Source of the DNA: Branchiostoma floridae
Taxonomy: Eukaryota; Chordata; Leptocardii; Amphioxiformes; Branchiostomatidae
Length of the DNA stretch: 64,000 nucleotides
Direction of reading: 5' to 3'
Assembly: GCF_000003815.2 (NCBI RefSeq)
Contig: NC_049997.1
Span: 15,929,503 to 15,993,502, forward strand
The notes under the pieces were generated by a model. The model made no database searches, had not been told where the DNA came from, and saw nothing but the letters and a program-made list of their open reading frames with translations. Made by a program: the position numbers and the translations under genes. Below, piece by piece: positions 106 to 48,003 of this stretch. The stretch's first letter is position 1. Each line of letters starts with the position of its first letter.

Positions 106-3100
106 ATGGGCCAGAAACCTGAAGTCAAAGTAAGTAATGTACTTTATTTTTTGATAGAGTCACGTGTAACAGTTAACCTTCGTCCTCACAATGGTGGTGT
201 ATAATCATAGCCTGATAGTACCATCGTATTCGGTTTACTACGGACCCATACCTACTATAGTGGCGTAAGCCCTGGTAAAATGAATAGGATGGCAACAGAG
301 ACAGCAGAATCACGGTGAAGACACCCTCCCACACAGGGTTGACTATCGCTATCACCCCTGACAATTTAGTCACAGAAAACGGGTATTAGGGGCGTGGCTT
401 CTAACCAACTGTCAGCCCATCGGAGACATGGCTTTTTGTTGTCCAAAGGCGCCATATAAGGCAATATATTCAAGAGCAAGATGACAATACCGGCATAACG
501 TTTCACAGTTCTTTCAGCGTCAGACGTCTTTATCAGGTACTAAATTTAAGATTTGTCTGTTCTGTGGGTATAGGGTAACCACGGGATACGAAATAAACAT
601 TATCATCACGCAAAAAATAAACAGATCTTTGTGCACGCCGGGTCGTACGCTGTTTGTTCGAAACTTGCAATCCGGCCGCTGATTGGCCTGCGACAAATCA
701 GATAAGCTCATTAATATTCATAAGTAAGGAATTGTCAGGGCATTGCCGCGATAGTCAACCCTGAGTGGGAGGGTGGTCGAAGATTACACATTCTTTATCT
801 AGCAATCTAGTCCTACCAAATGTAGAGTGGGAAGGTATTCTAAAAGATCATAAAGCCACGAGGTATTCATTACCACCAACGTAAGGTTAAAAGTTGAAAA
901 GTTGACATACTCATACATATATACATCTATGCAGAAAAGAAACCTCATTATAACAACTTAATATTGTATACATTGTCATAGTAATGTATATACTAGAAGA
1001 TAAGATCATCGCTGTGTCTCCTCTCAATCATGTTGTTTATATATTCAAATGGAGCCTGAATGTAGTATGTATAAGATTTATGTTATTAGCAAGTAGTCTG
1101 TAGCAACATTCTAGATTTGTTTCACATTGTACACTGTGTTTGTTCGAATAGTGCATATCCATCATCTACTGTTGCTAGCTTAATTCTGCCACTAGTATAT
1201 TGCTAGTGTTATTGCAATATAATGTATCATAAGTTTGCTTTACATTGTACCCGTTCTACAAATGTTGTGCAATAAACTTTGACTTGACTATATGCATGTC
1301 ATTTTGTCAAATTATGTCTTTCTTTATAAATTATACGGTAGATAAGATTATCGGAATGACTATGCGCTGACTGTAATCTAAATCTAAGTTTAAAAGACTC
1401 TTAGGACTCGATTTTACAAATTCAAATTATTGTAGCGTTTTTCTTCAATGTTATGTCTGTGAAGTTTGTCTGATTGCAATTTACCCCAGACCTTGAAAGA
1501 AGTAAAAAAAAAGTAGTTTGACCTGAAGCATACAATATACAGAGCTAGTATTTGAGAATAAACTCTTTCCTCTGTGACTAAGATAGACAAAAGAGCCCGG
1601 TTTACAGACATTAATGACTGCCATTGTTACACTGCCGTCGACAGATAGACCCTGAGGACAACAAAACCGGAAAGACACGGTTCCAGCCTCGTTTCAGGAT
1701 CGCGCTGGGATTGGCTGTGGCATTGCTGCTTGTGACATGCGCAGTGGCTGCAGCTGGGCTGATGACGTACTTCCGGGGAAAATGCGGAAACAACCGGGTG
1801 TGGCTTTTTGTTTCTTTTGGGGGGGGATGGAGTGGGGAGGGCGGTGTGTGTGCGAAGGGGGGGGGTGCTCACTGCCAAAACAGCAACAGATAACAATTAG
1901 CTTTCAAGTATGTCTCTGTTAAGATGCACTCTCACTGCACTTGTGTCAAGCTTGTGTCACTGTTTTGTTATTTTCTCCAATTTGGTATAATTTGATATTG
2001 TGTTATACGTAAAAGTATGTCACAGAGGACGACAAAATACACCAAAAGGAAGAAAATCCGTTCTTTATCTCCGAAATCCGTTAAGTGTCTTTCGAACCCC
2101 GCAGTGACGCAAGCTTGACACAAGTGCAGTGAGATTACACCTATAGGTGTCCGGACGGTAAAAGTCCACATTTGTTGATCCAGTTTGCTTCTTTGTTGTT
2201 GTTGTTGTTGTTGTTACACAGTTCACCATTAAGGCCTGCGTGAATGGTCAGACGTTCACAGAGGAGGTAGAAGTGGACCGGGAGAACGGCATGGTGGTGT
2301 ACCGTGATGACGTCAGCAATGAACACGGGGAGATCGTGCAAACCAAAGAGGTAGGGCGAAAAAGGACTCAAGTTGAATTAATTAATTTTCTTTCTGTGGT
2401 AAACGCCTGGTTAGTGCAAAAATTTTTACCGATCAAATTTATAACTGTTTTTGGAAAGTTTGAAATAGCTACTGACTGCTTGTTTTAAAACACACGACGA
2501 TTTTTTAGCAATGCAATACCAGTATGCCATGATTTTTAATATGGATATTCTAATCTGACTCTTGTTTCTTTGTAAAAATCCATTCTTTACAGGGACTGAC
2601 TGTGCTTTACTACGGAGGTAACTGTTACGTTTTGGAGGACGAAAGTAACAATCAGACAGATGGCTTTGACTTTGATGCGGTGGAAGCTTCGATGGAGTTC
2701 TTGGCTGTAAGTCCACTGAATATTAAACTATTTACCTTTATATGAATAAATCAGTAAAGTGATAAAGCCTTTATTTTACATTTTGCACACGTGCAAATTA
2801 CAACTAAGACAAGTTTTACAAACATACACATGTTGAACTAGAGTTCCACGACCCCATAACTTCCCCAAATAATCCTAACCTTTACAACTGCTCTATAATT
2901 TTGTGTCATTAATTATGCAAATATGTTGTCATTTGCGTAATTATATTACTTGATCATCTTCACCAACAAACAACAAACGTACACAATCTATGTTATGAAA
3001 AAGGCTTTTATCTCATTTTCTAATAATTTATGCAAATCAGGACCTCATTTGCATAATCATTCAACCCCTACCTGAGTTATTTCCTTACAAAGTCTGACAC

Positions 3101-5469
3101 TAAACCTGCCCTGCAGTTCCAAAACAAGCAGCTATGTGGCCAAAACCAACATCTCTTACTCTCGGCATTCAGAGCTGTCTACCAATCAAAAATCATATAG
3201 CCGCAGCATGTTCAGAACTCGAGATATCAAACCAGGAAGNNNNNNNNNNNNNNNNNNNNNNNNNNNNNNNNNNNNNNNNNNNNNNNNNNNNNNNNNNNNN
3301 NNNNNNNNNNNNNNNNNNNNNNNNNNNNNNNNNNNNNNNNNNNNNNNNNNNNNNNNNNNNNNNNNNNNNNNNNNNNNNNNNNNNNNNNNNNNNNNNNNNN
3401 NNNNNNNNNNNNNNNNNNNNNNNNNNNNNNNNNNNNNNNNNNNNNNNNNNNNNNNNNNNNNNNNNNNNNNNNNNNNNNNNNNNNNNNNNNNNNNNNNNNN
3501 NNNNNNNNNNNNNNNNNNNNNNNNNNNTATGGATGTTTAAAGTTTACTGGTACCCTATTGTCGCTTTATCAAAACGCCTGAAGGATTACTAATTTCTAAT
3601 ACTAGTTAGATATCTCAACTGGCGAAACTCACGTTCTAAAAACTATAAAGTATATTCATATAATTAGCATTAATGCATAGTCTACTACATTTCTGGTACA
3701 TATTTGACAAACTGTTTGCTCTTAGGTTAGAAATTACGGTTGTGCCTTTCTGGTTCAATTTGCAATTGGTAACAGGTTCTTTGTATACAATGTTATGGTT
3801 GATAATTGGCGTTCTTAATCTTTGTTTGCTTGTTTACTTGCTATCTAGAATATTACTTACGGCCGTTGAAAACTCTAATGTGGTATTTTTTTACGACAGT
3901 ATAGCAGTGAGGTGCCACGTTTTGACGTTGACCAAGTCGTGTTCCTGAACCGGTCAGTTCCGGTAAGCCCTGAAGATGACGTCATCCTACGATCACAGCT
4001 GCCACCTGTGTGTCATGACGTCACTTTGTACCGGGTCCAAAAGGGGAAAGCTCGAGGTAAAACTGTTACACCAATCACATCTTGTCTATTATGCACCAAA
4101 TGGATCCCATGAGTCATTTGCTTTGTAGTGTCATAGCAAAATCAGTTAATTTTGCGACAATGGGATTGGCTGACGGATAAAAAGTTTAAGCTGGCTAGTG
4201 CCCTGTCCATGACATTTGTACCAGACAACCCCCTCGAAATAAAAGAAATAAAAAATATAACGTTATTATGGATGCCAGGAGACACATTTCCGGTCGCACG
4301 ACATTGACGTACGTCAAAGTCGTCCGTCTCCGACATACGTTTTTTGTGCTTTGTGTGAACAGAACTCGCGCCGTCGGCGACAGGTATTTTATGGCCCGGT
4401 CGTACGTAGTACGTTAACCTCATAGTGGACGTACGACTGCCCTCGACCGCCCGACGGTAGGTCTGCGACGCTATTTTCCTTGTGTGAAAAGAACCGAGTC
4501 GCAGGTCGCTTCTCGGCACCGGTTTGTCGGCTGCAGGAGGTGATGGGAAATTCGCAAAGCAATAACTCAGTTTAGGATCAGTAGCCATAAATTGAATATT
4601 GANNNNNNNNNNNNNNNNNNNNNNNNNNNNNNNNNNNNNNNNNNNNNNNNNNNNNNNNNNNNNNNNNNNNNNNNNNNNNNNNNNNNNNNNNNNNNNNNNN
4701 NNNNNNNNNNNNNNNNNNNNNNNNNNNNNNNNNNNNNNNNNNNNNNNNNNNNNNNNNNNNNNNNNNNNNNNNNNNNNNNNNNNNNNNNNNNNNNNNNNNN
4801 NNNNNNNNNNNNNNNNNNNNNNNNNNNNNNNNNNNNNNNNNNNNNNNNNNNNNNNNNNNNNNNNNNNNNNNNNNNNNNNNNNNNNNNNNNNNNNNNNNNN
4901 NNNNNNNNNNNNNNNNNNNNNNNNNNNNNNNNNNNNNNNNNNNNNNNNNNNNNNNNNNNNNNNNNNNNNNNNNNNNNNNNNNNNNNNNNNNNNNNNNNNN
5001 NNNNNNNNNNNNNNNNNNNNNNNNNNNNNNNNNNNNNNNNNNNNNNNNNNNNNNNNNNNNNNNNNNNNNNNNNNNNNNNNNNNNNNNNNNNNNNNNNNNN
5101 NNNGCTACCTCTGCCAAACTGGTTTGTCTTCCCAGTATTTGTTTGTTCTGTTTGCTTTTATCTTTTGGTTCTTCTTACTTTTTTTAGGTTGGTAAAACGT
5201 AAAGAACGTGCAATAACTGCAACTCATTCGGAATTTCAGACCAGGGTTTGGACACCGAGCAGACGGAAGAGCGATCTCACCATCGCGCCAGGCGGGGCGA
5301 TCAGGATAATCCATACTACGACCCATATATGTTTCCCGACCACAACCTAATCGGTAGAGTTGATATGGTTCTTTATAGCGGACCATGTGAAGACCAGTAC
5401 CAATGCTTTAGTGTCTGGGGGTTCTATCAATCATCGCCCGAAGGGATGAAAAAGTATGGGTACCATTGA
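106..5469 (+). CDS. BRICHOS type II membrane precursor, copy A (chondromodulin/tenomodulin-like), 6 exons
   Basis: Exons: 106-129, 1645-1797, 2222-2350, 2593-2706, 3900-4056, 5240-5469; all junctions are GT/AG and the joined frame is open for 268 codons. Residues 1-26 are a short basic cytosolic tail, about 27-51 a transmembrane helix, and about 60-190 a BRICHOS domain. The domain has the conserved Asp (D78, in 'VEVD') and the two conserved cysteines (C113 in 'NCYVL', C178 in 'PPVC'). N157 in 'LNRS' and N122 in 'NQT' are glycosylation sequons. The last exon carries a furin-type site RARR (208-211), which would release a 57-residue C-terminal peptide. That peptide contains 'LYSGPC' and only two cysteines. 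The family acts as a lumenal chaperone for its own C-terminal segment; homology to chondromodulin/tenomodulin is my reading of exon 3-5 motifs. The start ATG matches those of copies B and C. Two assembly gaps lie in introns 4 and 5. Confidence 0.85.
3120..3239. repeat. Dispersed repeat fragment running into gap
   Basis: The motif 'ACTCGAGATATCAAACC' at the edge of the gap also occurs near 52305-52322, with a related, diverged stretch near 36010-36030. This marks a dispersed repeat family in the window. The copy is interrupted by Ns in intron 4 of BRICHOS copy A. Confidence 0.4.
3240..3527. other. Assembly gap (288 N)
   Basis: Run of N inside intron 4 of BRICHOS copy A. No exon appears to be missing: exons 4 and 5 flank it in the correct phase. 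Confidence 0.95.
4142..4602. repeat. GC-rich anomalous segment, probable transposon fragment
   Basis: This block in intron 5 of copy A is clearly richer in CpG than its surroundings and contains near-repeated pieces such as 'TTTGTGTGAACAGAAC' and 'TTGTGTGAAAAGAACC'. Such internal repetition fits a short mobile element. It runs up to the next gap, so its right end is not visible. The open frame on the minus strand shows no recognised domain and I do not call it a gene. Confidence 0.35.
4603..5103. other. Assembly gap (501 N)
   Basis: Run of N inside intron 5 of BRICHOS copy A. An additional exon could in principle be hidden here, but exon 5 (phase 1) and exon 6 (two completing bases) already join in frame, as in copies B and C. 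Confidence 0.95.
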
Positions 5470-5872
5470 AGTACGCTACGTACAAACCAAACCCCCAAAA
5501 AGAAGAGGTTATAAAATCTATTAAACTACTACTAACGTTCACATTATTGCACACAACTTCTGCTTCACTGTAAAACCATTAAAAGGTATACAATAGTTAG
5601 CTGCACAGCATCACCGCAAACAACAAAAACCTAGCTGCCGTCCCCCAATCAAACGTTTTCATGCATCAAGTAAAACTACACGTGCACGAACAGTACCGGT
5701 CGTCTGATGCTCATAGAGTATTTGTTCTATTATGAACGGCATAACGTCGCTATTGCAGCTACTGTGAACCGGACGCTGAAGTGTACTGCAATTTCGGATC
5801 GGTAGGCGGAGCTTTTTTAAAAATGTAATAGAGCACGTTAAAAAAATTATTAGGCTTCATAACACACAAGAC

Positions 5873-6492
5873 ACCGGGCTGAAGTTAGCAGCCCTTTTAG
5901 CAGCCGATTTTAGCAGCCGATTTTAGCAGCCGATTTTGACCTAGAGGAAAGGTAGCATCCGATTCGACTACAAGTATTTTTATTTTTTTTTTACGATTTA
6001 GCCCAATTGAACACATTTTTCAACGTTAGCGTTGACAAAAGTTATAAAATAGTATTTTTCCAACAATTAGAGTTTGTTATCGTTAAGTTGCAATTCTTAG
6101 TTTAGCAAATAACAGCAAAATTAAAAAAAACTCCAGCAGCGACACCTACCGGAGTGAGTGTACTTACGTAAAATCGGCTGCTATACGGCTAGTAGACCGA
6201 TATGCTACTTATCTAAACGTGGCCCGTGAACTTGTGAGGCCAATTTAGATAAATTATACCCTAACGTATTCAATACAAGTATCAAATCTTACGGGCCGGG
6301 TTTAATTAATGAACTAGAGTGGAACTATTGTCAACTTTAACGTTGAAAAATGTGTTCAATTGGGCTAAATCGCAAAAAAAAATAAAAATATATGTAGTCG
6401 AATCGGATGCTACCTTTCCTCTAAGTCAAAATCGGCTGCTAAAATCGGCTGCTAAAATCGGCTGCTAAATGGGCTGCTAACTTCAGCCCGGT
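5873..6492. mobile_element. Foldback hAT-like MITE with 8-bp target duplication
   Basis: A 620-bp element begins and ends with inverted copies of 'ACCGGGCTGAAGTTAGCAG'. The terminal repeats run inward for roughly 170-200 bp per side and contain tandem 'AGCAGCCGATTTT' units (three on each side). It is flanked by a perfect 8-bp direct repeat 'CACAAGAC' at 5865-5872 and 6493-6500. An 8-bp target-site duplication is typical of hAT transposons. No transposase frame is present, so it is non-autonomous. It sits just downstream of BRICHOS copy A. Confidence 0.85.
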
Positions 6493-6795
6493 CACAAGAC
6501 GATATCGCATTGTAAGAACTGGCAGTGCCCCTTGGGCAGTCCATTCTTTCCGGGGGGGGGGGGGGTGACTTTTTCAAATCCATTTTTGAACCGGTCAATT
6601 ATCACTGTCAACAGGCAAACACTTACTACATTCGTGCAGCTTTTTGACGTTGAAAACAAACGCAATGTGCTATATCTATATCTGGACTTTCGTATCTTTG
6701 TTTACTTTTACGGGAATCATTATACTATTTACAGTTTTATTCACCTTTTTTTCTTTACATGGCCTTTCTGGGGAACATATAGTTAATTACCGTGG

Positions 6796-6801
6796 AATAA
6801 A
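6796..6801 (+). terminator. Possible polyadenylation signal of BRICHOS copy A
   Basis: AATAAA occurs 1.3 kb after the copy A stop codon. Unlike copies B and C, no conserved 3' UTR block surrounds it, so the link to the gene is weak. Confidence 0.2.
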
Positions 6802-6869
6802 GTTATAAAACAAAAGTATTGATGACTGTTTTCTCATAAATCACTGCTGTAAACATCAAAATAAAAAGC

Positions 6870-6960
6870 AGTTACTCAAGCACTTGGTTCAGACGTTTCA
6901 TGTAGTATCCACTAGTTTTAGTCAGTTACACCGAGGAAACCGAGTGTCACTCACTTAAGA
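6870..6960. repeat. Dispersed 'TTACTCAAGCA...CAGACGTTTCA' repeat copy
   Basis: The core 'TTACTCAAGCACTTGG' followed by 'CAGACGTTTCA' and 'CACTAGTTTTAGTCAGT' recurs at about 60112-60195, and partly at 26228-26365 and 36203-36240. It is an interspersed family of unknown class. Confidence 0.5.
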
Positions 6961-7027
6961 GGTAAATGCAAGAGGGCACCGTATATTCATTGAAAACAAC
7001 AACGACTGCCAGACAAAGCAATTGTGT

Positions 7028-7258
7028 AGGTTTCATACACACACACGAAAACACAAGTACACACATACAAGCACACGCAAACACATACACACACACATAA
7101 ACCCACACACACGCACAAACATACACAAGTACACACACACACACACACACATACACACAGAACACACACAATTTTTTTTAAACACACACACACATAAACA
7201 CACACAGACACACACACACACACATAAACACACAGACACACACACACATAAACACACA

Positions 7259-7295
<37 letters not shown>

Positions 7296-7313
7296 AAACA
7301 TCCACACACACAC
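7028..7313. repeat. (CA)n microsatellite
   Basis: About 290 bp of CA/ACAC with scattered G and T interruptions. All open frames across it are Thr/His or Cys/Val repeats and are artefacts. Confidence 0.95.
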
Positions 7314-7399
7314 AACTTTGATTTCACGTGGAAATTCTTAAAAACTTTCGCTATATACCCTTCGAGTACGTTTACACTTCGTTGGGTTATTAGCTTCGC

Positions 7400-9060
7400 C
7401 AAGAAGATTATGTTTTTGCCTGACTTGGGTCTGTATGTAGGTCAACAGGATATAACTCGAGAAATTGTGGATGGAACTTTTTTATTTTTTGCAGGTGTGT
7501 AGCGGTTGTTGAAAGGCATGCCTAGTTCGAAAATGGGTTACCTGGCGTTTTCCTATGGTACATTAGCGAGCTTGGTATTTTTTTGGTGTTTTTTCGGGAA
7601 GCATAAGTCAAAATTTAGCTGGGCGATTTCCACGATATTTGGCAGGTGTGTAGCGGTTGTGGAAATGATTGTCATGTGCAAGAATGGTTTAGCTACCTTT
7701 TACCTATGGTGCTGTAGCTGGCTTTGTATGTAAGTGCGTTTGTCTGTATGCAAGATAACTCGAGATGTTCTTGATGGATGCTAATGATATTTGGTTGATA
7801 GGTAGGGGACACAGAAAGGAAGGTCAAGTTCGATAATGGGCCTCCTGGCGACTTGTGTTGGTACTGCAAGTGAGCATCAAAGTTTGCGCCTAAATTTTCC
7901 AGAAGTGCCAGGTTCATGATTTTTTAATGGTGGATAGATGTTGGTACTAGGAGTCAATGGTCTAATTTTGGGCCCCCTAGCAGCTTGTTTGGAACTGCAG
8001 TGGGTCTTATAGTTTGTAGCTTTTAAGAAGGATAACTGCAGAGGAGATTGATGGATATTTTTTTTGTTTTTGGTAGCTAGGTACTTTGGTTGATTATCAA
8101 CATCTATTTGATATAATTACTTAGGGAAAGTTATGCAATTAACAGAAATAAACAGTGTTTTCTATATACAGATGCATCTCATTTTGACCTATATTTAAGG
8201 ACACACGTACAGCTGTTTGCCAGATGTTTTGCCTGAGAAGCCTTGTGACCTGGACGCCCTACCACTGTGAAAATCCTCTTGACAAGCATGAAATTCTGAT
8301 TGACCGGGGATGCTACCACTGAGGTCATCTTTGGTCACAGTCCAATGCCCCCTATCATCAATGCTATTCGGCCAGGCTGGAGTCTGGTAGAGACTACATG
8401 ATTTTAATAAAGCACTATGATTATGAAAGTTGCGCTAGAAAGTATCACAACAGTGTACATAATTCCATTGTCACCAGTTGGCCAAGAAAGTTATCTTTGG
8501 TAGCATTTGTGGGTATGTAAGGAACACAAGTTCATGCAGTCATTTGCTATTGGGGTAGGTACTATTTAGTAATACATGAAAAAGACCTTAAAGTATTAAT
8601 AAAGGCATGATTATTTGGCGAAGGGATGTGTTCGATGAACTCTAGTTCGAATTAAATCTAGGATAACAAGTGTGTTTACATCTTTCGCTTCAGTGCTTTC
8701 ATAGGTTGAATGCGTGATACTCGTGCAAACCTGTAATTTGTTTACGTTAATGTCTGTCTCTTTCTTAGGGAAGTGTTACAGTATAGTTTTTCATAATCAA
8801 GTAGGTGGACATTGTGGCGACTTGTCTTAATCTTTATGTCATTTGAAAACACCTTTTCTTTGGTAATGAGGTACCATCACACAATGACCTTTGTAGAGGT
8901 CAAAAAAGGACGCATGGGTCACGGTTCGGTAAGTTGTCATTTTCAACTTAGGAAACAAAAAGTGTAACTTGTTGTTATGTTCTGTAATGCGGGTCCAGAT
9001 GTCGTGAATTGCTCATTTAAATTGTCGCGAATTGTTCATCAAAGTCATTTAAATTTCTCA
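7400..9060. repeat. Intergenic stretch with degenerate internal repeats, no gene
   Basis: Between BRICHOS copies A and B. The phrase 'GCAGGTGTGTAGCGGTTGT' near 7491 returns near 7643, and phrases such as 'GATAACTCGAGA' and 'GGGCC(T/C)CCT(G/A)GC' recur at roughly 150-bp spacing up to about 8050. This indicates a decayed tandem or nested dispersed repeat. From about 8200 to 9060 I see no coding exon. Confidence 0.4.
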
Positions 9061-9079
9061 GAACAACCTTACATAATCA

Positions 9080-9327
9080 TGACGTCAACGTAGGTCAAGA
9101 GTAAAATTAAAGGTCATTGTATCCTAGCAACAAGCTCGGGGCTATCACAGTCTTTGATCCCCAAAACAAAGAGGTTGTCAGTTTTTCAATCAACTGGAAT
9201 GATTATTCAAAACTAAAGGTGGTGTTGTTGTTCCCAACTGCGCATACCCAAGCTAGAATCCGTGCAGACGGTCTGTTTGTGAAGTTTGTCGCTGTTAGAG
9301 TCGGGTACAGAAGATTTGAAAGAAGCC
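9080..9327 (+). promoter_or_regulatory. Promoter module of BRICHOS copy B: CRE, X-box-like site, conserved 5' block
   Basis: A perfect cAMP-response palindrome TGACGTCA lies at 9080-9087. An RFX/X-box-like site 'GTATCCTAGCAAC' lies at 9119-9131. About 200 bp follow that match the region upstream of copy C almost base for base, ending in the 5' UTR block shared with copy A. The order CRE, 31 bp spacer, X-box is the same in copies B and C. Protein binding is inferred from motif shape only. Confidence 0.55.
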
Positions 9328-10575
9328 ATGGACCAGAAACCTGAAGTCAAAGTAAGTAAATAATTTACGTTTAGGTCAGGGTTTGAAGATAGTTTGTCTC
9401 AAAGCCTTTTAAAGACAGTTAAGGGGCAGTGGGTTGTTTTCCACTGTGCCTAGGGCATGGTATTGGGAGACGAAGCCGTTCTACCGCCTTTTACCTCTCC
9501 AACCGAAGTCAGGTGCCCATTTTTACACCTGGGCGGTGTAAGGAAAGTCGTATTACATGCAACTGCTTTTCTAGAGGACAAAAATTCGGTAGCATAACGG
9601 GATTCGAACCAAGGACCTGTGGAATCTGTACCATACATTTTGCAGTTACCCAAAACGACCCCGGTGAGAGGGTACTACGTCACAATCTGGCGCTCAGTAT
9701 ACACGTTCGCCTTTTACGTCCGTGGTGCAATCTTAGCCTGATATACACTCTGTAAAATTTATCGTGGCCCCTATTACTGCACACCTAGTATAAGGACCCT
9801 GGTAAGCTAGAAAGGATGGCACCCAAGACAGCAGACGACTACACAATGTCTGCCTAGCAGGCTAGTGACATATTTGCTCGACACAACGAAGACAGGGGAG
9901 TTAACGTTAGTTATAGAAAAAGTTCAAGCAACTACCTTACACCGTCAACGTAGCACTAGAAGTTTAAAAGATGGCACACTCTTCCACAATGTGCATACGG
10001 GTAGCATTGTTTATGTTATTATGTAGACTCATTTCTTTATAATATTCTGTCTAAGTCTTTAGTACTTGTTTTCCTCAACAATAATAAAAAGGGGCGTGTA
10101 CAGCTATTCACGGGGCCTTTTGTTACACTGCCGTTTTGACAGATAGAACCCGAGGACAAGAAAACCGGAAAGACCAGGTCCCAGCCTCGTTTCAAGATCG
10201 CGTTGGGATTGGCTGTAGGCTTGCTGTTTGTGACTTGCGCAGTGGCGGCTGGTGGGCTGATGACGTATTTCCGGGGAAAATGCCAACATAAGAAGGTGTG
10301 ACTGTTTATTTGTTTTTCTCAGAGGTTTTGTCCAAACAGGAACAGCTAATCATTGGCATACTTGAATTCTGAGTCATGTTTATGAGTAAATATTTGATGC
10401 TAATCTCAATACATTTAAATTTGAAAATTAAATTATGAAAGTGTTTTCCATTACAACCGCGAAAAATGGTATTGCTAGTGTGTTTGTGCGTCTTTGTGTG
10501 TCTTTGTGCGTGTGTGTTTGTGTGTTTTCCGTGTGTTTTTAGTGTGTACATGTGGTTTTGATGTGTGTTTGTGTT

Positions 10576-10622
<47 letters not shown>

Positions 10623-13600
10623 GTGTGCGGGCGGCCGTGTGTGCGTGTATATCCTTGTTTCTGAATATTTGAAGTCACCATAACTTACCATCCTTTGCAT
10701 CCATCAAATTATTACTTGTTGTGTGGGTAGGCAATAAAAAAACGAAGTTCAAGATTGATATTTGCCCCCAGGTCCATAGTTTGTGGCCTTATTTCATTGC
10801 TTGTGTTGTTTCTGTACACACAGTTCACCATCAAGGCCTCCGTAGGCGGTCAGACGTTCACAGAGGAGGTAGAAGTGGACCGTGAAAACGGCATGGTGGT
10901 GTACCGTGATGACAGCAACACTGAAGATGGAGAGATCATCCAAACCAAAGATGTAAAATCTCTTAATTTCGTGTGGACTTAATTAAGCTGTAAAAATGGG
11001 ACTAAGGTTTTAGCTTTTTTTACGTGGATTACAAAATCCTGAAGCAAAAACACACAAACGTGGTTTGATGATTAGTGATTTATCGATAACAGGGGAAATA
11101 TTATAAAAACCACCAATTCTGCATGATATACAGTTGGAAATAAACATAACGTTATCTTAGTAGTTAAACCAGTGACACTAGCCTTTTACACGTTGAATCC
11201 TTTAGCATGCAAGCGAAATGATTGAGCCAGCGGTCACTACAGAGTGGTACTCGTGCTATGGAAACAGCCTATGGACAAAATTTTGTAGAACCAGGCAATT
11301 GTATCAACACAATAGCAATGATGTTTTGACCAGGTTGGTTTTGTTCCACAGGGTTTGTCAGTGCTCTACCAGAGAGGCAACTGTTACCTGTTGGAGGACA
11401 GAAACAACGACCAGACGAGCGACTTTGACATTGATGAGGTGGAAGCTGCAATGGAATCTTTAACTGTAAGTATTATGATAGAAATTCTTTGTGTTCATTG
11501 ATTTATGATCTACATATCAAATAATTTTGAGCAAAGAGAGATGCTGCTTTATTGATATTCATAGTATCATAAGATTCTTTCTCTTTGGACTGTTTTGACA
11601 AAAATGTCCCTGCTTTTTGAAAAGTAAATGCTGGGGGGGGGGGGAGGGGCGATCTTGTCCTGAGCAAAAGCTATCTGCTTCTATTATCCTATATTGTTTA
11701 ATTAGTAAAAAAAAAGATCCTATATTGTTTACTTAGTAGAATTTTAAGATCTATTCTGCATTCCTTCTTTTTTTGTAGTTTATAGTTGACCATACAAAAG
11801 TTACTGTACTATTTTTGTCGTGTCAATGAAGCTTCAATATCAATATCATATCGTAGATCTATGAGGTACAAGAGATATGTTGAAAAACTGCTATGATAAA
11901 ACATTCTCAATAATGATGCAACTTTCCTCATATTTTGTATGATTTGTATTCTATTTCGACATCTTTGTCTAAGCAACCTACATACCAATAATCATGAAAA
12001 TCCGTTATTCCTTTTTTGATTATATAATTATTCTGTTCGGAAATTTTTGAAATTAATTCTCCAGCAACTCTAAAGCTAGCGGCTAGGGGACTTCAAGTTA
12101 TGTCATTTTTTGCTGAAAACGAGCAATCAAATAGCCAAAAAAAATCGTGACCATAGCTTGTCCAGAACGCAAGATTTCAAACAAGTTCCGCTGCAGTACC
12201 ATGTAAAGCCCCTAGGGATGCCATAATCTAATCATTTCCAAATTTCATTGCAAACCACTAACACACCACATGAAGTTGACTCATATAGCCCTTTGTTACC
12301 ACCAAGACAGACAGCAGACACACAAACGCTAGTGAAAATACGAAGTGATAAGTTTCTTGCTATGGGTTTTCATTGTCGTAATCACTGGCAACGTAATATG
12401 CCCAAAGCAGTTTAGAAAAATCAAATATTGCTTGAGTTACGGTTTTACAAAGTCCCAAAAGCGAAGAGTCAATGAGTAGGGATAATAGCATCTATTTAAT
12501 ATTAACATTCTTTACGACAGGATGCCAGTGACGGACCGAGCTTTGACGTTGACCAAGTCATATTTCTGAACCGGTCAGTTCCGGTTAGCTCTGAAGATGA
12601 CATCATCTTGCGATCACAGCTGCCACCTGTGTGTCGTGACGTCACGTTGTACCGGGTCCAAGAGGAGAACGCTCGAGGTAAGTCTATAAACTGACCCTGT
12701 TCTAGTCTCAATAGCTGTTCTAAAGTATAGTGTAAGCTCTTTCGCAGATTTTACTACGCATGTGCAGGTGCCAGAAATCCTGGGTAATACCTACAAGGTG
12801 AAGGCCGGTCAAACGAAACAGTCTCGTCTTGACCATTGTTTTGATCTGCGTGATCTGAAATGAATGTCTGGAACGTAATTGCGCTTGCAAAATGGTGAAA
12901 TGTTTACGTTCACGGGGCCTTTACCCTTGACTTTTTTACCCAGGACTCTTGACGGCAGCATATGCGTAGTGAACTCAAATTGTAATATAAAAAGAGATTA
13001 AGTTAAATTCCGAATGCTGTCTTATGGGGCTAAAGACCAGCAGTTTCCGTTTCCTTTTTAACCACGTGCACGATTTGTCTTGAATGTACCCAGAAGTTGA
13101 AGTTAAACTATAAAGGGATTGGCAGATCGCCATGATCATATAAGCGATATTTAATACACATAGATGTGAAATATGTAAATTGACATTTAATTTGCATAGC
13201 TAATGACGAAAGTTTATAAACCCACTTCATTATAGGACTATTCCAACATGTGACGTTTTGTAACCGAGAAATAGAATAATATGGATATCATGCAAAAGAA
13301 AATCCAAGTTGCATAACTAGCGAGGAAATTCTATAACTCCATTGTAAAATGAATAACGGGAATGTCATCCTTCCATGAGGAACTCATTTGCATAAATTAT
13401 CAGAAAATACAAATAGCCGTCTTTCTTAGATAGATTGTGTACGTCTGTTGTTTTGGTGGAGGTGATGATCAACTGATAAAATCTATGCAAATTTATCTTA
13501 TTTACATCATACGAGATGATAAAAACACATAACAAATGAGTTGAAATCATTTGAGGAAGGTATTGGCTTATGGCAACTTAATATGGAACTTGTTGGAAAA

Positions 13601-13986
13601 TGTTTTGTAGGAACATAAAATAACTCTGTCAATCGTACGGAATTTCAGATTATTTGGAACAGGACATCAGCGATGGAGTGGAGACGGACACGTTCTACAA
13701 TCGTGTCAGGCGGTCTGTTGGAGATAGGTCCGGTTTTAGAGGAATAACAATTATTATTCTGTATGTGGGGCGTTGTTCTAGGTCCTGGGGGTGGCCCCGA
13801 TGTACATGTAGATTTATGTGTTGGCGCTGCAATTGCTATAAAGTAGTGATTTATTGGGGGCGGCCTTCGGTGGTGCCCCCGGAGGGAGATATCTGCTGTA
13901 ATGGTGAATTGCAGGCCATTCGTGAGCATGTTTTGGACAATGTAGGAGCATTTCAGAACCAACAAGAAATCTTACCAGAACAATAA
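9328..13986 (+). CDS. BRICHOS type II membrane precursor, copy B, long cysteine-rich tail, 6 exons
   Basis: Exons: 9328-9351, 10143-10295, 10824-10952, 11352-11465, 12521-12677, 13649-13986, all with GT/AG borders; 304 residues. Layout as in copy A: cytosolic tail, transmembrane helix (about 27-51), BRICHOS domain (about 60-190) with D78, C113 and C178, and the N157 sequon. The final exon has RVRR at 211-214 followed by a 90-residue peptide (13714-13983). The peptide opens with a hydrophobic strand ending 'ILYVGRC', then a C-x-C-x3-C-x2-C-x-C cluster rich in W and R, then a Pro-rich linker, 'DICC', and an acidic-amphipathic tail. It has eight cysteines, an even number. Exons 1-5 and the introns are close to copy C. 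The tail is longer than that of A or C; it could include a late read-through extension. Homology to chondromodulin/tenomodulin is inferred. Confidence 0.88.
9429..9655 (-). mobile_element. tRNA-derived SINE-like element in intron 1 of copy B
   Basis: On the minus strand a Pol III B-box 'GGTTCGAATCC' lies in 'CCTTGGTTCGAATCCCG', preceded by a tRNA-like head and followed by a non-tRNA body. The same element occupies intron 1 of copy C (16800-17050). It inserted before the B/C duplication. Related body pieces appear near 33190 and 30660. Confidence 0.55.
10489..10642. repeat. (GT)n microsatellite in intron 2 of copy B
   Basis: GT-rich imperfect repeat. A related GT-rich tract sits at the matching place in copy C (17900-18030). 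Confidence 0.9.
12060..12330. repeat. Dispersed repeat in intron 4 of copy B
   Basis: Contains 'GCTAGCGGCTAGGGG', 'GCTTGTCCAGAACGCAAG' and 'CACTAACACACCACA'. The same ordered motifs occur, diverged, at about 52915-53175. The order and spacing match over more than 200 bp, so this is an interspersed repeat, class unknown. Confidence 0.5.
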
Positions 13987-14515
13987 GATATCGACTAAGA
14001 TAATTCACCGTGTTTTAAAACAGACCACCTACGCACAGTGGTATGACACTCCGCATCTTGAATACAAATATTTGTGAATTAGACTCAATCCCAAACGACC
14101 TGGTATGTTTGGAACCCAGATGCCACAAGAAAACTTAATACAACAGTCGTTCAGAACATGCCTTTGTTTGTCAGATGTTGAATCTTGCATTAACTTGTGC
14201 CGATGTGTTCTAAACATGCATGCCTTACTTGCAGAATAGATGATTTAGCATGTACACAAGCCGACTTCGTAACTAATAATCTTGGTTGGTAGAAGTTTCA
14301 ACAATTATCCAAAAGGCATGGTCGTTTAGTTACTCGTTGACTTCATGATTGAACCGGGCTTAAAATCGGGCCAAATTACAAAATGTATCTCTATTCTTTC
14401 CTTTGTTCGATTTATTCTGTTTAAAGTTGCTGCTTGTGTATTGTTTGTGTAATTTTCGTTCAAATTTAGTGAAAATACATTGGGTTGATATAATACTTTG
14501 TCGTAAAATAATTGA

Positions 14516-14521
14516 AATAAA
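14516..14521 (+). terminator. Polyadenylation signal, BRICHOS copy B
   Basis: AATAAA lies in a block ('TTTGTCGTA...ATTGAAATAAA') that is conserved about 500 bp downstream of the copy C stop as well (21177-21182). Conservation beyond the coding region supports this as the 3' UTR end of both genes. Confidence 0.6.
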
Positions 14522-14612
14522 GGTACAAACCCAAAGTCCAGGAATTTTCTTATTCCTGGTATCATTCTACAATTAGGAAACAGGTGATAACAACAACACG
14601 AATGTGTGTTTA

Positions 14613-14613
14613 G

Positions 14614-14663
<50 letters not shown>

Positions 14664-15010
14664 ACACCAATATCTATATATACAACACCAATATCTATAT
14701 ACAACAACAATGTATATCTATATGTATGTATATATATATATCTATATATCTATATATCCATTTCTATATATCTATATATACGTATCTCTCTCTCTCTCTT
14801 AACATATATATATATATATATATTATATATTATATAAAATATATATATATATATATATATATATGGCGTGTGACGTGTGGCTGGATGGGTGATGTGTGTC
14901 GGTGTGTGCGTGTGTCTGTGCGTGCTGTGTGTGTCGGTGAGTGCGTGTACGTGTGTTTGGTGTTGCGTGTGCTGTGTATGTGTACGCGCGTGCGCGTGTG
15001 TGTGTTGAAG
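14613..15010. repeat. (TA)n, (TATC)n and (GT)n microsatellite complex
   Basis: Long TA tracts at about 14614-14660 and 14803-14864, CT repeats near 14787, and then a GT/GC-rich tract to about 15005. Intergenic between copies B and C. Tyr/Ile repeat frames here are artefacts. Confidence 0.95.
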
Positions 15011-15019
15011 ACAGAGCAT

Positions 15020-16030
15020 ACTCCTTCTTAAACATAAAGTTATTGCTGATCTTAACTTGTTGTGTGTCGAGCACAATACCTCCGGAGGTAAATATATGGT
15101 ACTGTTGATGTCCAAAATGTATTTGTTCAGTCAAGCGCTAAAAGCATCGCGGGGGCCTTGTTACTGCAACTGTGTACAGGACGCCATGCACATGTGTAAC
15201 ACAGATTCAATTTTTAACGAATGTGCTTAACTCCTGTTTACAGTATCTTGATCAAAAGATTATATGTTATCTTTGAACTTAATTCTCCTCTCACGACAAA
15301 CAACGTCTTACGATATATCACAGGAATCTTACAATATATTATTCTACCTTATTGATACATTTTAAAATAATGGAATGTTACACATCTAGATTGCACTAGG
15401 AAAAGGACTGAGAGTGACATACCCTGCGTTGTAACTAAATATAATATACATTTAGAACACGTTAAGACTTCGATGGGTTTATAAACAAGCAATCTTGAGT
15501 TATAAGCTTCAGTGCATTCACGAGTTAACGTGTAATTCTTCTGACACCTGTACTGTATAAATATCTGATTTGTTCACATTAGTTTCTGACTCTTATCTAG
15601 GGGAGAGTTTTTTTTCATAATTAAGGAGATGAACAATTTGTCTATATTTTCATGTCTTGAACCATTTGAAAATACCTTGTTTCAATTAATGAGCTACCAT
15701 TAAAAGAAGACATTGTAGAGGTCAACATTGTTCTTAGTTTCCTCAGTTTCTTATCAATTATTATTCATCATTTGACAAATTTTATCAAAATTCGTTAAAA
15801 CTGGGTTTACAAACAGCCAATCTTGGATTAAAAGTTTGTTTACAATTTCTGCTTCAGTGCTTTAATAATCGAGTTAACATATAATGCTTACAACACCTGT
15901 GCTCTGTAAATGTCTGACTTTTTCACGTTAGTATCTGACTATCATCTTTGAGTGTTATCTTTTTCATAATCAAAGAGACGACCAATTTGACGATTTGTCT
16001 ATATTTTGATGTCTTGAACCAATTGAAAAT
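15020..16030. other. Intergenic, no gene seen
   Basis: AT-rich sequence between BRICHOS copies B and C. Two imperfect copies of a segment ('CTTGAACCATTTGAAAATACCTTG', about 15655 and 16010) indicate a local tandem duplication; related sequence lies upstream of copy B near 8845. No exon-like frame with splice sites is visible. Confidence 0.4.
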
Positions 16031-16031
16031 A

Positions 16032-16234
16032 CTGTAAATGCAAAAAAAAGTTCCCGGAGATTTAATTTCGCGGTAGCGGGAAAATGAACTTTTCGAGGTG
16101 GTTTAATTTCGCGGTAGCACCATGCACTGTCTTACTTTTATGAAAAATGTTCGCGGTGGTTTTAAATTCGCGGTAAAGCGGCCGACGCGAAAACCGCGAA
16201 CACTAAACCACTGCTAACGTTTCTGCATTTACAG
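16032..16234. mobile_element. Tc1/mariner-like MITE (CTGTAAATGCA family), copy 1
   Basis: Ends are inverted 'CTGTAAATGCA', flanked by TA on both sides (target duplication). The inside is made of repeated 'TTCGCGGT' phrases, giving a strong foldback. A second member of the family is at 58682-58889. TA duplication is typical of the Tc1/mariner superfamily. It carries no coding capacity. Confidence 0.8.
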
Positions 16235-16462
16235 TACCTTGTTTCACATATAATGAGCTACTATCAAAAGAAGATCTTTCTAGAGGTCAAAATTGGAATC
16301 TTTAGGTCATGGCGTTTTAGCAACAAGTTCTGGTACATTGACGTTTCTAACCAAGAAGACAGAGTGACTTCCTTGTTGTCATGTTATGTAATGCTATGTC
16401 CTAATATCACGTATTGTTCTCGTCTAGTTATCAAATTTAATCTTATCAACCTCACATAATCA

Positions 16463-16711
16463 TGACGTCAACGTAGGTCAAGAGTAAAATTAGAAGGTCA
16501 CGGTATCCTAGCAACAAGCTCGGGGCTATCGAAGTCTTTGGTACACAAAACAAAGAGGATGTCACTTTTTCAATCAAGTGGAATAATTATTCAAATCTAA
16601 AGGTGTAGTTGTTGTTCCCAACTGCGCATACCCCAGCTATAGCCCGTGACGACGGTCGGTACTTGAAGTTTGTCGCTGTTAGAGTCGGGCACAGAAGATC
16701 TGAAAGAAGCA
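16463..16711 (+). promoter_or_regulatory. Promoter module of BRICHOS copy C
   Basis: TGACGTCA at 16463-16470 and 'GTATCCTAGCAAC' at 16503-16515, followed by the 5' UTR block shared with copies A and B. It is nearly identical to the copy B promoter. The start codon context here is 'AAGCAATGG' instead of 'AAGCCATGG'. Confidence 0.55.
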
Positions 16712-19700
16712 ATGGACAAGAAACCTGAAGTCAAAGTAAGTAAATAATTTACGTGTAGGTCAGGGTGTGAATTTAATTAGTCTCAAAGCCTTTTAGAGAC
16801 AGTAAAGGGACAGTGGGTTGTTTTCCACTGTGTCAAGGGCACGGCATTGGGAGGCAGAGACCATTTCTGTTCTTCCACCGCCTTTTACCTCTCCAACCGA
16901 AGTCTGGTACCCATTTTTTACACCTGGGTGGTGTAAGGAAAGTCGTATTACATGTAATTGCTTTTCTAGAGGACAAAAATTCGGTAGCATAACATGATTC
17001 AAACCAAGGACCTGTGGAATCTGTACCATATACTTTGCAGTTACCCAAAACGACCCCGGTGAGAGGGTACTACGTCACAATCTTACGCTCAGTATACACG
17101 TTCGCCTTTTACGTCCGTGGTGCAATCTTTGCCTGATATACACTCTGTAAAATTTATCATGGCCCCTATTACTGCACACCTAGTATAAGGACCCTGGTAA
17201 GCTAGAAAGGATGGCACCCAAGACAGCAGACGACTACACAATGTCTGCCTAGCAGGCTAGCGACATATTTGCTCGACACAACGAAGACAGGGGAGTTAAC
17301 GTTAGTTATAGAAAAAGTTCAAGCAACTACCTTACACCGTCAACGTAGCACGGGAAGTTTAAAGGATGACACACTCTTCCACAATGTGCATACGGGTAGC
17401 ATTGTTTATGTTATTATGTAGACTCATGTCTTTATAATATTCTGTCTAAGTCTTTAGTACTTGTTTTCCTCAACAATACTAAAAAGGGGCGTGTACAGCT
17501 ATTCACAGGGCCATTTGTTCCACTGTCGTTGACAGATAGAACCCGAGGACAAGAAAACCGGAAAGACCAGGTCCCAGCCTCGTTTCAAGATCGCGCTGGG
17601 ATTGGCTGTAGCCTTGCTGCTTGTGACTTGCGCAGTGGCGGCTGGTGGGCTGATGACGTATTATCGGGGGAAATGCCAACATAAAAGGGTGTGACTGTCT
17701 GTGTGTTTGTTTTTCTTAGAGACACTGTCAAACCAGAACAAATAATAATTAGCTGACTTGAAATGTGAGTGGCGCTTAGGGGTAAATACTTGATTTTTCG
17801 ATATGCTGTTTAGAAATAGAATTGAATACGAAAAAGTTATTAGATAATAATGAAGTTGTTTTTCATCACCTCCATGAACAATGATTTAATTGTTAACTGT
17901 GTTTTTGTGTGTGCGTGTGTGTTTGTGCGTGTTTTTTGTGTTTTGGGACGTGTTTGTGTGTACGGGCATGTGTGTTTGTGTGTGTGCGTTTGTGTCTGTC
18001 TGTCTGTATGTGTGTGCCTGTCTATCTATCTGTGTTTCCGAATACTTGGAGTCACCTTAACTCTGCATTGATTAAACTGTTACTTGTCTTGTAGGGAGGC
18101 GATGGGAAGACGAAGGCCAATGCAATTTCGATATTTACCCCTCCCCCCGTACAAAGTGTGAAGCCTTGTTTCATTACTTTTTTTTCTGTACATACAGTTC
18201 ACCATTAAGGCCTCCGTAGGCGGTCAAACATTCACAGAGGAGGTAGAAGTGGACCGTGAAAACGGCATGGTGGTGTACCGTGATGACGTTAGCACTGAAG
18301 AGGGAGAGATCATACAAACTAAAGAGGTAGAAACTGTTTTTTTTTCGTCTGGACTGGATAATGCGATAAAGATGAAAAAAAAACTTTCACCTTCGTGAAC
18401 AAAACAATACTTTATGGCGGTTGCATGATTTCGCGATTGAGAAGTATCGCGAAAACTGGGAAAATGAAACCGCCAGTATTTCATGATTTCAGTACTGCAT
18501 ATTCACTAGTCAAATCCCATTAAAGACACTAATCTTTACAAACTATGTCCCTAAACTTCAATTTTTCACCGCTTATAAAAGCCCATAACAAACAAGATGA
18601 TATGTGATTTGAAAAGTCCTGTGGACAAACTTGTGTAGAACCAGGTTATTGTGTCAACACAATAGGAATGCTGTTCTCACCAGGTGGTTTTGTTCCACAG
18701 GGTTTGTCAGTGCTGTACCAGAGAGGCAACTGTTACCTGTTGGAGGACAAAAATAACGACCAGACGAGCGACTTTAACATCGATGAGGTGGAAGCTGCAA
18801 TGGAATCTTTAACTGTAGGTATTATGATATAAATGATTTGTGTCTATTGATCCACATACGTTTAAGCAAAGAAAGATACTACTCCATTGATAGTAATAAT
18901 ATTATTTTGAATGATAACGTTTTAAAAAAATCTTCTGCATTTCCAAAATTAAATTGGAACGGGCCTACCTTACCTTGTACTAACCAAAGGCCATTATCTG
19001 CAGATCACATATCAATACCATATCGTATCAGCTATATACGTTGCAAAGCTGCTATGATAGAATAGCCTCACTCATTATGCAGATTTCCTCATATTTTGCA
19101 TGATTTGTATCTAATGTCGATATACCTGGTCCAATAATCATGATAATCATGAAGTCTCTTCGGAAATATTTCAAATTAATTATCCAGCAATCCCAAAACT
19201 AACCGCTAGGAGACCCAAAGTTGTGTCAATTCTTTCCGAGAACAAAAGCTAACTAGAAAGGCAACATTTTCACGTAAATGCAGAAGTCTTCCCCGTGGTC
19301 TTTTTTTAAGCTAGTCACATACTATAGTGTACCAATATTAACTAGAAAAGCCACATTTTCTAAGACAATGCAGGATGTTTCCGAACAAAAAAGAAAAAAA
19401 GCGCAAAAAAGAAACAAACAAAAAAAATGTGAGGGGAGCAAGCCGGAAAAAAAGTCCCGACCACTACTATATCTCCGCGACCCAACCTCTGCTTGGAGAA
19501 GCGCTAAGTATAATCATATCCCTGTATTTTGCAACAGAACCGATATACGTTTACGACATATTTGTCAATTTGCGGCATGAACACCCCCCTCCCCACATGG
19601 ACCGCCCCGCTTTTCGAAAGTTCTAAGAGTAAGAGCCAGAGTCAACGAGTAAGAATGATATCATCTACTTATTAATGACATTCTTTACGACAGGATACTA

Positions 19701-20662
19701 ATGACATACCGAGCTTTGACGTTGACCGAGTGATCTTCCTGAACCGGTCAGTTCCGGTTAGCCCTGAAGATGACGTCATCCTACGATCGCAACTGCCACC
19801 TTTGTGTCGTGACGTCACACTGTACCGTGTCCAAGAGGAAAACGCTCGAGGTAAATCTATCACACTAAAACGATGAGGAAAAACTATGCGGTAAGACTAC
19901 TACACTATTACAGTTAAACTTGCTCTAGACTCCAAGCAAATCTTGGATATAGTATTGGTTTCAATACAATTCAAACTATGAATTCAGAAATGGGATGATT
20001 TTGAGACAATAATACCCACTCCCCAAACAGAGGTTAGGCTCCGGCTGTTTTTCGACGTTTTTAGGTGTTTTTATCGGGCTTTCTATTTTGTACCGTGTTG
20101 TTGATGTCATGCCTAACCTCTGCTTGGAGAGCACTGACTACCATGCTCTTGTGCTGAGACCCTGCGTATTTTTCACTTCCTCTTTAACCACGTTTTATCC
20201 TAACTCCAATTAGATGTAGGAAAGGAAAATTACCGTAACTTAGTCCCTGGTCGGCAGACTATTGGGTCTTTTCGCTGCCAAATCTGGAGTTGAAGAAAAG
20301 TAACAATTCTAATGTTATCAATTTCTGCTTGGAGAGTTGTTTTTTAAATATTTTTTCCTGCGTCATTTTGTTGTACCGTTAGAAATTGGAAAATGTTGTG
20401 TAAGCACATACAATGACTTCGTAAATTGTTCGGATTTGCAGATTATTTGCAACAGAAAAACGACGATGGAATAGGGACGGAAATGTCCCACAATCGTGTC
20501 AGGCGGTCTGAAGGATGGTGCCGAGGAGGGATGAAAATCAGGCTTTTGTACGCGGGACAATGTTTGTGGCACCCCCCGTGTAGATGTGAATATCAGTGCA
20601 GGCGGGGATGCCATTGTATTAAGATGGAGTTTTCGTGTGGTGGGGGTGAATATAGTGGGTAG
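16712..20662 (+). CDS. BRICHOS type II membrane precursor, copy C, compact 8-cysteine peptide, 6 exons
   Basis: Exons: 16712-16735, 17536-17688, 18198-18326, 18701-18814, 19694-19850, 20442-20662, all GT/AG; 265 residues. Transmembrane helix about 27-51. BRICHOS domain about 60-190 with D78, C113 and C178, and the N157 sequon. Furin-type RVRR at 211-214 releases a 51-residue peptide (20507-20659). The peptide has eight cysteines and a net positive charge of about +3. It contains 'LLYAGQC' and then a compact ladder C-R-C-EYQ-C-RRG-C-H-C, with basic residues at the centre and symmetrical cysteines, as expected of a disulfide-laddered beta-hairpin. The shape recalls hairpin antimicrobial peptides such as theta-defensins, tachyplesin and arenicin; that is analogy, not shown homology. 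The tail ends in a Gly-rich segment. Confidence 0.88.
16800..17050 (-). mobile_element. tRNA-derived SINE-like element in intron 1 of copy C
   Basis: Orthologous by duplication to the element at 9429-9655. The B-box here is changed to 'GGTTTGAATC'. It shares the same flanks inside intron 1. Confidence 0.5.
17897..18035. repeat. (GT)n/(TCTG)n microsatellite in intron 2 of copy C
   Basis: GT-rich tract ending in CTGT/CTAT repeats, at the same intron position as the GT tract of copy B. Confidence 0.85.
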
Positions 20663-20929: not shown

Positions 20930-21176
20930 CATGTCATGCACTGTATGTCATGTTTAATATAGATCTAGTGTCTAGTTTTTCTGTTAGCTAAAAGTTAAAA
21001 GATATTAAAGAATTGTTTGTAATAGCCATACCTGTATTTACATCTGTTTGTCTTGTGTGTTTTTTGGTAGCCTTTTTGTTATTTGGGATACATTTTGATT
21101 TTTGTTAACGTTGCGTTTTTTTTTAAGTTACGATAGTACATTGGTGGACATATGCAGCTTTGTCGTAGAAAATTGA

Positions 21177-21182
21177 AATAAA
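21177..21182 (+). terminator. Polyadenylation signal, BRICHOS copy C
   Basis: AATAAA in a block conserved with copy B at 14516-14521; the sequence after it ('CAATTAG(G)AAACA(G/T)GTGATAACA') is also shared. Confidence 0.6.
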
Positions 21183-21269
21183 TGTGCAGACCCTGCCCAA
21201 ATCGAGTGATTTGCAGTTATTCTTGTAGCACTCCACAATTAGAAAACATGTGATAACAAAAACACTAAA

Positions 21270-47327: not shown

Positions 47328-47926
47328 CTACAATTTGGCCTGCTCATTCTGATGCTGTAGAAGAGATCGATTGATGTCCTTGATTTCCTTACAGCCTGAA
47401 AAAAAGGAAGAATGCATTAATTTTAAACATTTTCTTTGGTGAAGAATCAAAAGTTCGACCAAAAGGCATAAGTACGATATTGGACCCACCTGACAGAGCC
47501 ATGGCAAGACTTAGCTCGTCTTTTAGAATCTGTAGAACATGGCGGACACCTTCTTCCCCCTATACAATGCAGTCAAAGATAAGTTGTTTAATTGTCAGGA
47601 TTCTTTGTACTATTCTATATATTATTGAAGAAAGATAATGGCGGTTACAAATTATACTGTTCAAAATGATAAAATACAATGTCTAAAACTCAGCCTTAAG
47701 CTACAGCAACAAAAATTATTATATCCCAATACTTAAAGTAGGGATTTTACATAAAGAGATACCAGCTAGAGATCGCTTTAATAGAGACTGTAGTACGTCC
47801 AAACCTTTAACAAATTTCTCAATTCTTTTGGTGAGTGCCCAATTTAGTTGGCACATTAGTTTTACCAAGGACATTTGGATATCATTTAGTAACGTTATAG
47901 TGTTAAAGTGTCTCAGATATACATAC

Positions 47927-47969
<43 letters not shown>

Positions 47970-48003
47970 TGAGTGTAATTTTTCTTGGTGTGTGTGTGTG
48001 TGT

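Follow-up and report, generated by a model that had tools for sequence, protein, structure and literature searches.

Tandem amphioxus genes that join a probable BRICHOS-like domain to diverging C-terminal peptides

The window described here is a 64,000-nucleotide (nt) stretch of the 513-Mb Branchiostoma floridae genome, C19:15929503-15993502 (C19 being contig NC_049997.1), and positions within it are counted from its first letter. Its + strand holds three complete genes, A (106-5469), B (9328-13986), and C (16712-20662), whose splice sites were read by eye and whose exons were then joined; the models rest on this reading and on comparison within the family. Each gene would encode a short tail, a hydrophobic helix, a conserved domain, a basic protease site, and a C-terminal peptide, here called the cargo. 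We lean toward the view that these are divergent BRICHOS-type chaperones fused to furin-released peptides, like the annelid BRICHOS antimicrobial precursors.

The three genes are built alike. Exons 1 to 5 have identical lengths in all of them (24, 153, 129, 114, and 157 nt), every intron is GT-AG with the last in phase 1, and the spliced frames are open over 268 (A), 304 (B), and 265 (C) residues. The strongest hydrophobic 19-residue window begins at residue 27 in each (approximately residues 27 to 45), and D78, C113, C178, and the sequon N157-R-S are common to all three. The domain encoded by exons 3 to 5 is 74 to 90% identical among them, which is beyond chance. The last exon measures 230, 338, and 221 nt in A, B, and C, respectively, with cut sites RARR, RVRR, and RVRR and cargoes of 57, 90, and 51 residues carrying 2, 8, and 8 cysteines. 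An earlier note on this DNA had described three six-exon genes with a common tail and helix, with the same three shared residues and with these sites and peptides, and the spliced frames bear out each of these statements. The features are listed below; all exons rest on the spliced frame, with further evidence in brackets.

106-129, + strand: gene A exon 1 (start codon, cytoplasmic tail)
1645-1797, + strand: gene A exon 2, tail and transmembrane helix (hydrophobic window)
2222-2350, + strand: gene A exon 3, linker and first part of the BRICHOS-like domain; Gln99 codon 2339-2341 (alignment)
2593-2706, + strand: gene A exon 4, BRICHOS-like, Cys113
3900-4056, + strand: gene A exon 5, BRICHOS-like, Cys178
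5240-5469, + strand: gene A exon 6, prosegment, RARR 5284-5295, 57-residue cargo 5296-5466, stop
9064-10295, + strand: 5' block of gene B (5' flank to exon 2, intron 1 included), the homogenized half; 89 to 96% identity by segment with gene C 16447-17688 (segment comparison)
9328-9351, + strand: gene B exon 1
10143-10295, + strand: gene B exon 2, transmembrane helix (hydrophobic window)
10824-10952, + strand: gene B exon 3; Gln99 codon 10941-10943 (alignment)
11352-11465, + strand: gene B exon 4, Cys113
12521-12677, + strand: gene B exon 5, Cys178
13649-13986, + strand: gene B exon 6, prosegment, RVRR 13702-13713, 90-residue cargo 13714-13983 with six-cysteine core, stop (core pattern)
14496-14602, + strand: 3' block of gene B, 77% match to gene C 21158-21268; AATAAA in each by eye, likely poly(A) region (sequence match)
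16712-16735, + strand: gene C exon 1
17536-17688, + strand: gene C exon 2, transmembrane helix (hydrophobic window)
18198-18326, + strand: gene C exon 3; Gln99 codon 18315-18317 (alignment)
18701-18814, + strand: gene C exon 4, Cys113
19694-19850, + strand: gene C exon 5, Cys178
20442-20662, + strand: gene C exon 6, prosegment, RVRR 20495-20506, 51-residue cargo 20507-20659 with six-cysteine core, stop (core pattern)

Genome members of the family were found by exon-by-exon searches, after which the loci were read. Two apparently intact genes lie outside the A-C cluster. Gene E, on C9, has six intact exons (24/153/129/120/157/239 nt), the site RDRR, and a 56-residue peptide with 6 cysteines; gene F, on C13, has the site RNKR and a 32-residue peptide with 3 cysteines, with exons 2 to 6 located and exon 1 not found. 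Copy X, on C19 approximately 13 kb upstream of the window, has RVRR and a 52-residue peptide with 8 cysteines, and is without exons 1 to 4 and the start of exon 5, which presumably lie inside an adjoining run of N. All six loci with a located exon 6 (A, B, C, X, E, and F) carry a basic protease site. In pseudogene D, also on C19, a stop falls in the last part of exon 5 and the acceptor of exon 4 lacks AG; a simple scan did not find its exon 6. Three single-exon fragments (C9:3775328, C19:15879046, and C19:4032778) have no partner exons in the 10-kb stretches read; like pseudogene D, they were left out of all alignments. A genome search with the X cargo was not exhaustive: it recovered X, C, B, and E but neither the A nor the F cargo. 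Within the window outside A-C there was no further cargo-like exon, the best match having an expectation value (E value) of 0.018 (48593-48709, - strand).

An 11.4-kb run of N (C19:15918113-15929502) lies between X and A and ends directly before the window; it may hide a further family copy. The piece of exon 5 present in X shows 91.9% identity with A and 91.2% with B across approximately 100 bases, a possible mismatch between the histories of exon 5 and exon 6.

The gene structure resembles that of the ITM2/Bri family. Introns 2 to 5 of A-C match those of amphioxus ITM2, on C12, in place and phase (0, 0, 0, 1): one after the helix, one at HDFRR/QLTAF in ITM2 versus IIQTKE/GLSVLY, one at LLMRIS/DGSYM versus ESLT/DTNDI (a slash marks the intron), and the last, in phase 1, behind the second cysteine. 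Only the acceptor of the first ITM2 intron was seen, also in phase 0, and ITM2 exon 1 was not located. The type II layout and a proprotein cut site early in exon 6 are further points in common; in amphioxus ITM2 that exon encodes KR and then a 25-residue, two-cysteine peptide. This separate gene, however, has a Pfam-detectable BRICHOS domain, keeps the signature Asp, and carries a short peptide, whereas the window family is not detected by Pfam and has Gln and longer, mostly cysteine-rich peptides. Amphioxus ITM2 is also the weakest of the four single profile comparisons made with the family. In amphioxus ITM2 (L048 6979-7970, on C12) the end of exon 3, splice donor included, is repeated in tandem as eight 124-bp copies, which may be a real minisatellite or an assembly artifact.

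Comparison of profiles also points to BRICHOS. A profile of A, B, C, E, and F against one of SFTPC, ITM2B, TNMD, and amphioxus ITM2 scored 28.76 (E value, 0.00042) over 110 columns. None of 300 column shuffles reached this score (mean, 12.1; maximum, 23.47), and 45 rotated-reversed profile controls gave at most 13.06. C113 and C178, with their equivalents in E and F, align with both domain cysteines of TNMD, and the order of elements (hydrophobic segment, linker, domain, C-terminal region) is that of BRICHOS proteins, with any strand tendency of the cargo judged by eye. The profile of A-C alone gave E values of 0.024 to 0.047 against single known BRICHOS proteins. Because of the profile-profile score and the introns shared with amphioxus ITM2, we call the exon 3-5 domain BRICHOS-like, a probable rather than a proven member of the superfamily as judged by sequence. 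The earlier claim of one BRICHOS domain in all three genes thus stands for the near identity of the domain, is probable for the homology, and fails for the Pfam match. Searches of Pfam, NCBIfam, PHROGs, and PDB were uninformative, their weak hits looking like chance, and human TNMD as a query found nothing in the amphioxus genome, an empty answer that shows little.

BRICHOS domains are studied for amyloid prevention, and a natural family that has Gln at the signature Asp site and serves several client peptides would offer a ready test of that residue's role. With the shared intron as anchor, H-D-F-R-R of ITM2 faces I-Q-T-K-E, which makes Gln99 the counterpart of the Asp in A, B, and C; E and F likewise have Gln there, as does pseudogene D. 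Alignment of A-C to TNMD by hhalign gives the same pairing, and the five-member alignment puts a gap, instead of Gln, opposite the Asp. Under either alignment, the position as placed by sequence has no acidic residue. D78 is indeed in all three genes, as the earlier note had it, but it is not the signature Asp and pairs with a linker residue of TNMD. According to the available part of a survey of 2019 BRICHOS domains, the position holds Asp in 97%, Asn in 2.7%, and Glu or Ser in 0.3% of single domains and Asp in 31% and Asn in 68% of multiple domains, with one Glu; Gln is not named in that part (PMC9627735). The same source describes the pH-sensitive aspartate as influencing two BRICHOS activities in opposite directions.

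Four of the six cargoes (B, C, X, and E) share a core, C-x(5,8)-C-x-C-x(3)-C-x(2,3)-C-x-C, that follows a Y-x-G motif. In 20,000 shuffles of each cargo the core was matched 0 (B), 9 (C), 12 (X), and 0 (E) times. The last two cysteines of B sit in a C-terminal extension beyond the core. Because four of the six share it, we rejected the idea that the cargoes are unrelated, swapped-in modules; the differences in size and cysteine count reported earlier are real, and B and C are nonetheless related through the core. Net charge is +2 for the cargoes of B and E and +3 for those of C and F, and the five complete domains carry -10 to -19. There was no significant hit in Pfam (A, B, C, and X as cargoes, E and F as whole sequences), in PHROGs (cargoes of A, B, and C), or in PDB (cargo profile of A, B, C, X, and E). 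The cargo alignment, A5, used the first 54 of the 90 residues of B and the first 49 of the 52 of X and left F out.

All rate figures compare paralogues within one assembly. The nonsynonymous rate (dN) of the cargo exceeds that of the domain in each of the 12 pairs computed, the domain in the four pairs with X being only 30 codons of exon 5. Cargo and domain dN are 0.49 and 0.05 for B-C, 0.78 and 0.14 for A-B, and 1.00 and 0.14 for A-C. Fisher tests were applied to the six pairs that A, B, C, and E form, whose domains are complete; in all six the nonsynonymous difference of the cargo is 3.1 to 7.5 times as large as that of the domain (P = 5.1e-11 to 2.5e-15). The synonymous rate (dS) of the cargo is also raised (1.15 versus 0.29 for the domain in B-C; P = 0.0006), and alignment error may inflate both cargo dN and dS. 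The equal rates of exon 6 and exons 3 to 5 that would have spoken against the earlier note were not found. The cargo changes fast yet under some constraint, because its dN exceeds that of the domain while its dN/dS is 0.36 to 0.66 in the 5 of 12 pairs where this could be estimated, some of them near saturation. Positive selection on the cargo was rejected as a demonstrated result, dN/dS being below 1 wherever estimable. Prosegment dN/dS values of 7.3 (B-C) and 1.1 (X-B) rest on merely 0.5 and 3.0 synonymous changes over 22 codons and were given no weight.

Selection is not the sole source of the sameness of the precursors. Between B and C the Jukes-Cantor (JC) distance starts at 0.06 (intron 1) and 0.05 (exon 2), then rises to 0.36 in intron 2 and 0.57 in introns 3 and 4, with intron 5 overall at chance level; exons 3 to 5 stand at 0.05 to 0.14 and the cargo, over the first 54 of the 90 residues of B, at 0.62. 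Low distances in intron 1 and exon 2 beside high ones in introns 3 and 4 show that the 5' half of these two genes was homogenized, or exchanged later than the rest, and exons 3 to 5 form selected islands. The sameness of the B and C precursors is due to purifying selection together with homogenization of the 5' half. The earlier picture of a constant chaperone with changing cargo therefore holds as a near-constant precursor and a faster cargo, with the B-C sameness partly a matter of homogenization and without positive selection.

Among known systems, the annelid BRICHOS antimicrobial precursors (arenicin, alvinellacin, nicomicin, capitellacin, and HfBRI) share with the family a hydrophobic segment, a proregion with a BRICHOS domain (a probable one in amphioxus), a dibasic or furin-like site, and a variable C-terminal peptide. 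The amphioxus family differs in belonging to a chordate, in a domain below Pfam detection, in Gln at the Asp site, and in the six-cysteine core of four cargoes. The layout of BRICHOS-related antimicrobial precursors (domain, basic site, C-terminal peptide) is present; the BRICHOS identity itself is probable. CNMD has an eight-cysteine C-terminal peptide and a furin site, and TNMD is the best single profile match of the four tried, but no similarity of cargo to CNMD/TNMD was found. A tenomodulin-like cargo was rejected, the cargo profile giving an E value of 0.081 over 6 columns against a typed tenomodulin C terminus. HfBRI comprises 13 peptides of 18 to 91 residues in one species, with HfBRI-75 and -91 having 11 cysteines and not being markedly cationic (PMC10745061), and the nicomicin proregion containing BRICHOS is acidic (PMC6265681). 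In Alvinella, the peptide is invariant and BRICHOS diversifies (PMC5431198); the amphioxus genes are like this case in recombination and its reverse in selection. A 2025 review gives a single amphioxus antimicrobial peptide, BjAMP1 (PMC11767717), and PMC2751770 assigns sequences from amphioxus and echinoderms to a "divergent group" of two, which may correspond to the window family. We found no report of an amphioxus BRICHOS-cargo family in the open-licence literature searched.

On the reading that we prefer, the short cytoplasmic tail and single helix would anchor a type II precursor in the secretory membrane. The lumenal BRICHOS-like domain, with ITM2 gene structure and Gln for Asp, would by homology shield the C-terminal peptide of the same chain or help it fold, and a furin-type protease would cut after the RxRR-type motif and free the peptide. 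Tandem duplication would copy the whole unit; among the paralogues, the chaperone is kept near constant by purifying selection on the domain and partial 5' homogenization as the peptide varies, around the six-cysteine core in four of the six members. The released peptides most likely act outside the cell. The chaperone and release step is quite likely. Host defense is the leading role for the peptides, unproven and in our estimate a little short of an even prospect. A fuller picture is tentative and less likely than not: a chordate peptide arsenal on a profile-invisible BRICHOS chaperone, with Gln fixed, the chaperone held constant by selection and homogenization, and cysteine-core peptides diversifying for defense, the mirror image of Alvinella.

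Several results weigh against this reading. Pfam BRICHOS (PF04089) lists no match at an E value of ≤10 for A, B, C, E, or F, nor for the isolated A-C domains, in a listing limited by the HMMER filters, which drop most matches above approximately 0.1. By the earlier note's own terms a failed profile match would speak against its reading, and with Pfam the profile does fail to match. A genome-wide search with the same model gave 8 matches at ≤10, two of them ITM2 exons and none from the window family, and no match at ≤0.001. From very shallow alignments, hhalign gives the combined comparison a probability of only 34%, and the five-member profile is weak against single proteins (TNMD, 0.0043; SFTPC, 0.04; ITM2B, 0.049; amphioxus ITM2, 0.15). 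Searches of solved structures (PDB) gave no significant match, only two single chance hits. The signature Asp is absent from the family. In the cargo, dS is saturated in 7 of 12 pairs, which leaves the few dN/dS estimates given above; A, with two cysteines, and F, with three in another arrangement, are without the core; and the cargoes of A (-5) and X (-2) are acidic.

These results bear on the alternatives to different degrees. That the exon 3-5 domain is not BRICHOS at all, an unrelated domain in a convergent proprotein layout, would fit the missing Asp and the Pfam silence where true BRICHOS domains give approximately 1e-18 or better (typed human pieces of SFTPC, 1.1e-18; ITM2B, 1.4e-21; and TNMD, 1.1e-18; amphioxus ITM2, 5e-20), but the profile-profile score above all 300 shuffles, the two aligned cysteines, and introns 2 to 5 at matching places and phases with amphioxus ITM2 make this very improbable. 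It is also improbable that function resides in the membrane-bound domain and that the tail past the cut site is relaxed or decaying, in which case the change of cargo would mean little. The two-cysteine cargo of A and a B-C cargo about as diverged as introns 3 and 4 (JC distances as above) speak for such decay. Against it, all six cargo frames are open and four keep the core, B-C cargo identity (0.578) exceeds all 40 shuffles (maximum, 0.524), and synonymous change exceeds nonsynonymous change in the cargo of B-C (P = 0.023) and X-C (P = 0.017), though not significantly in X-B (P = 0.23). Rather less unlikely is the same precursor and release with peptides that are matrix, adhesion, or signaling factors, as in chondromodulin or ITM2, their differences being tissue-specific subfunctions. 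Two of the six cargoes are acidic, the gene structure is that of ITM2, and the ITM2 peptide is not known to be antimicrobial, all of which we count for this alternative; the fast change around the cysteine core, the gene turnover with a pseudogene and fragments, and a cargo profile without a match to tenomodulin count against it.

If the chaperone-and-peptide reading is true, chaperone-guarded secreted peptides of the annelid type extend to a chordate, and the family may possibly represent a new antimicrobial peptide family in a close relative of vertebrates.

Some further observations concern other loci and the remainder of the window. Two nearby exons at C15:1862939 and C15:1868611, sub-threshold Pfam hits, resemble the second half of a gastrokine-type BRICHOS domain and match a typed, unverified GKN1 weakly (E values, 0.005 and 0.012). 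Another sub-threshold BRICHOS-like exon, at C10:11599869, has a phase-0 start at the same place, and a simple scan did not find a downstream partner. In the 3' flank of gene A, the stretch 5873-6492 is a palindromic, transposon-like element with 119-nt arms that are 97% complementary. Three of ten neighboring open frames scanned have Pfam matches, all on the - strand (28968-29255, 47725-48348, and 50488-50880): one contains a thyroglobulin type-1 repeat, and the other two are fragments of an FMN-dependent dehydrogenase.

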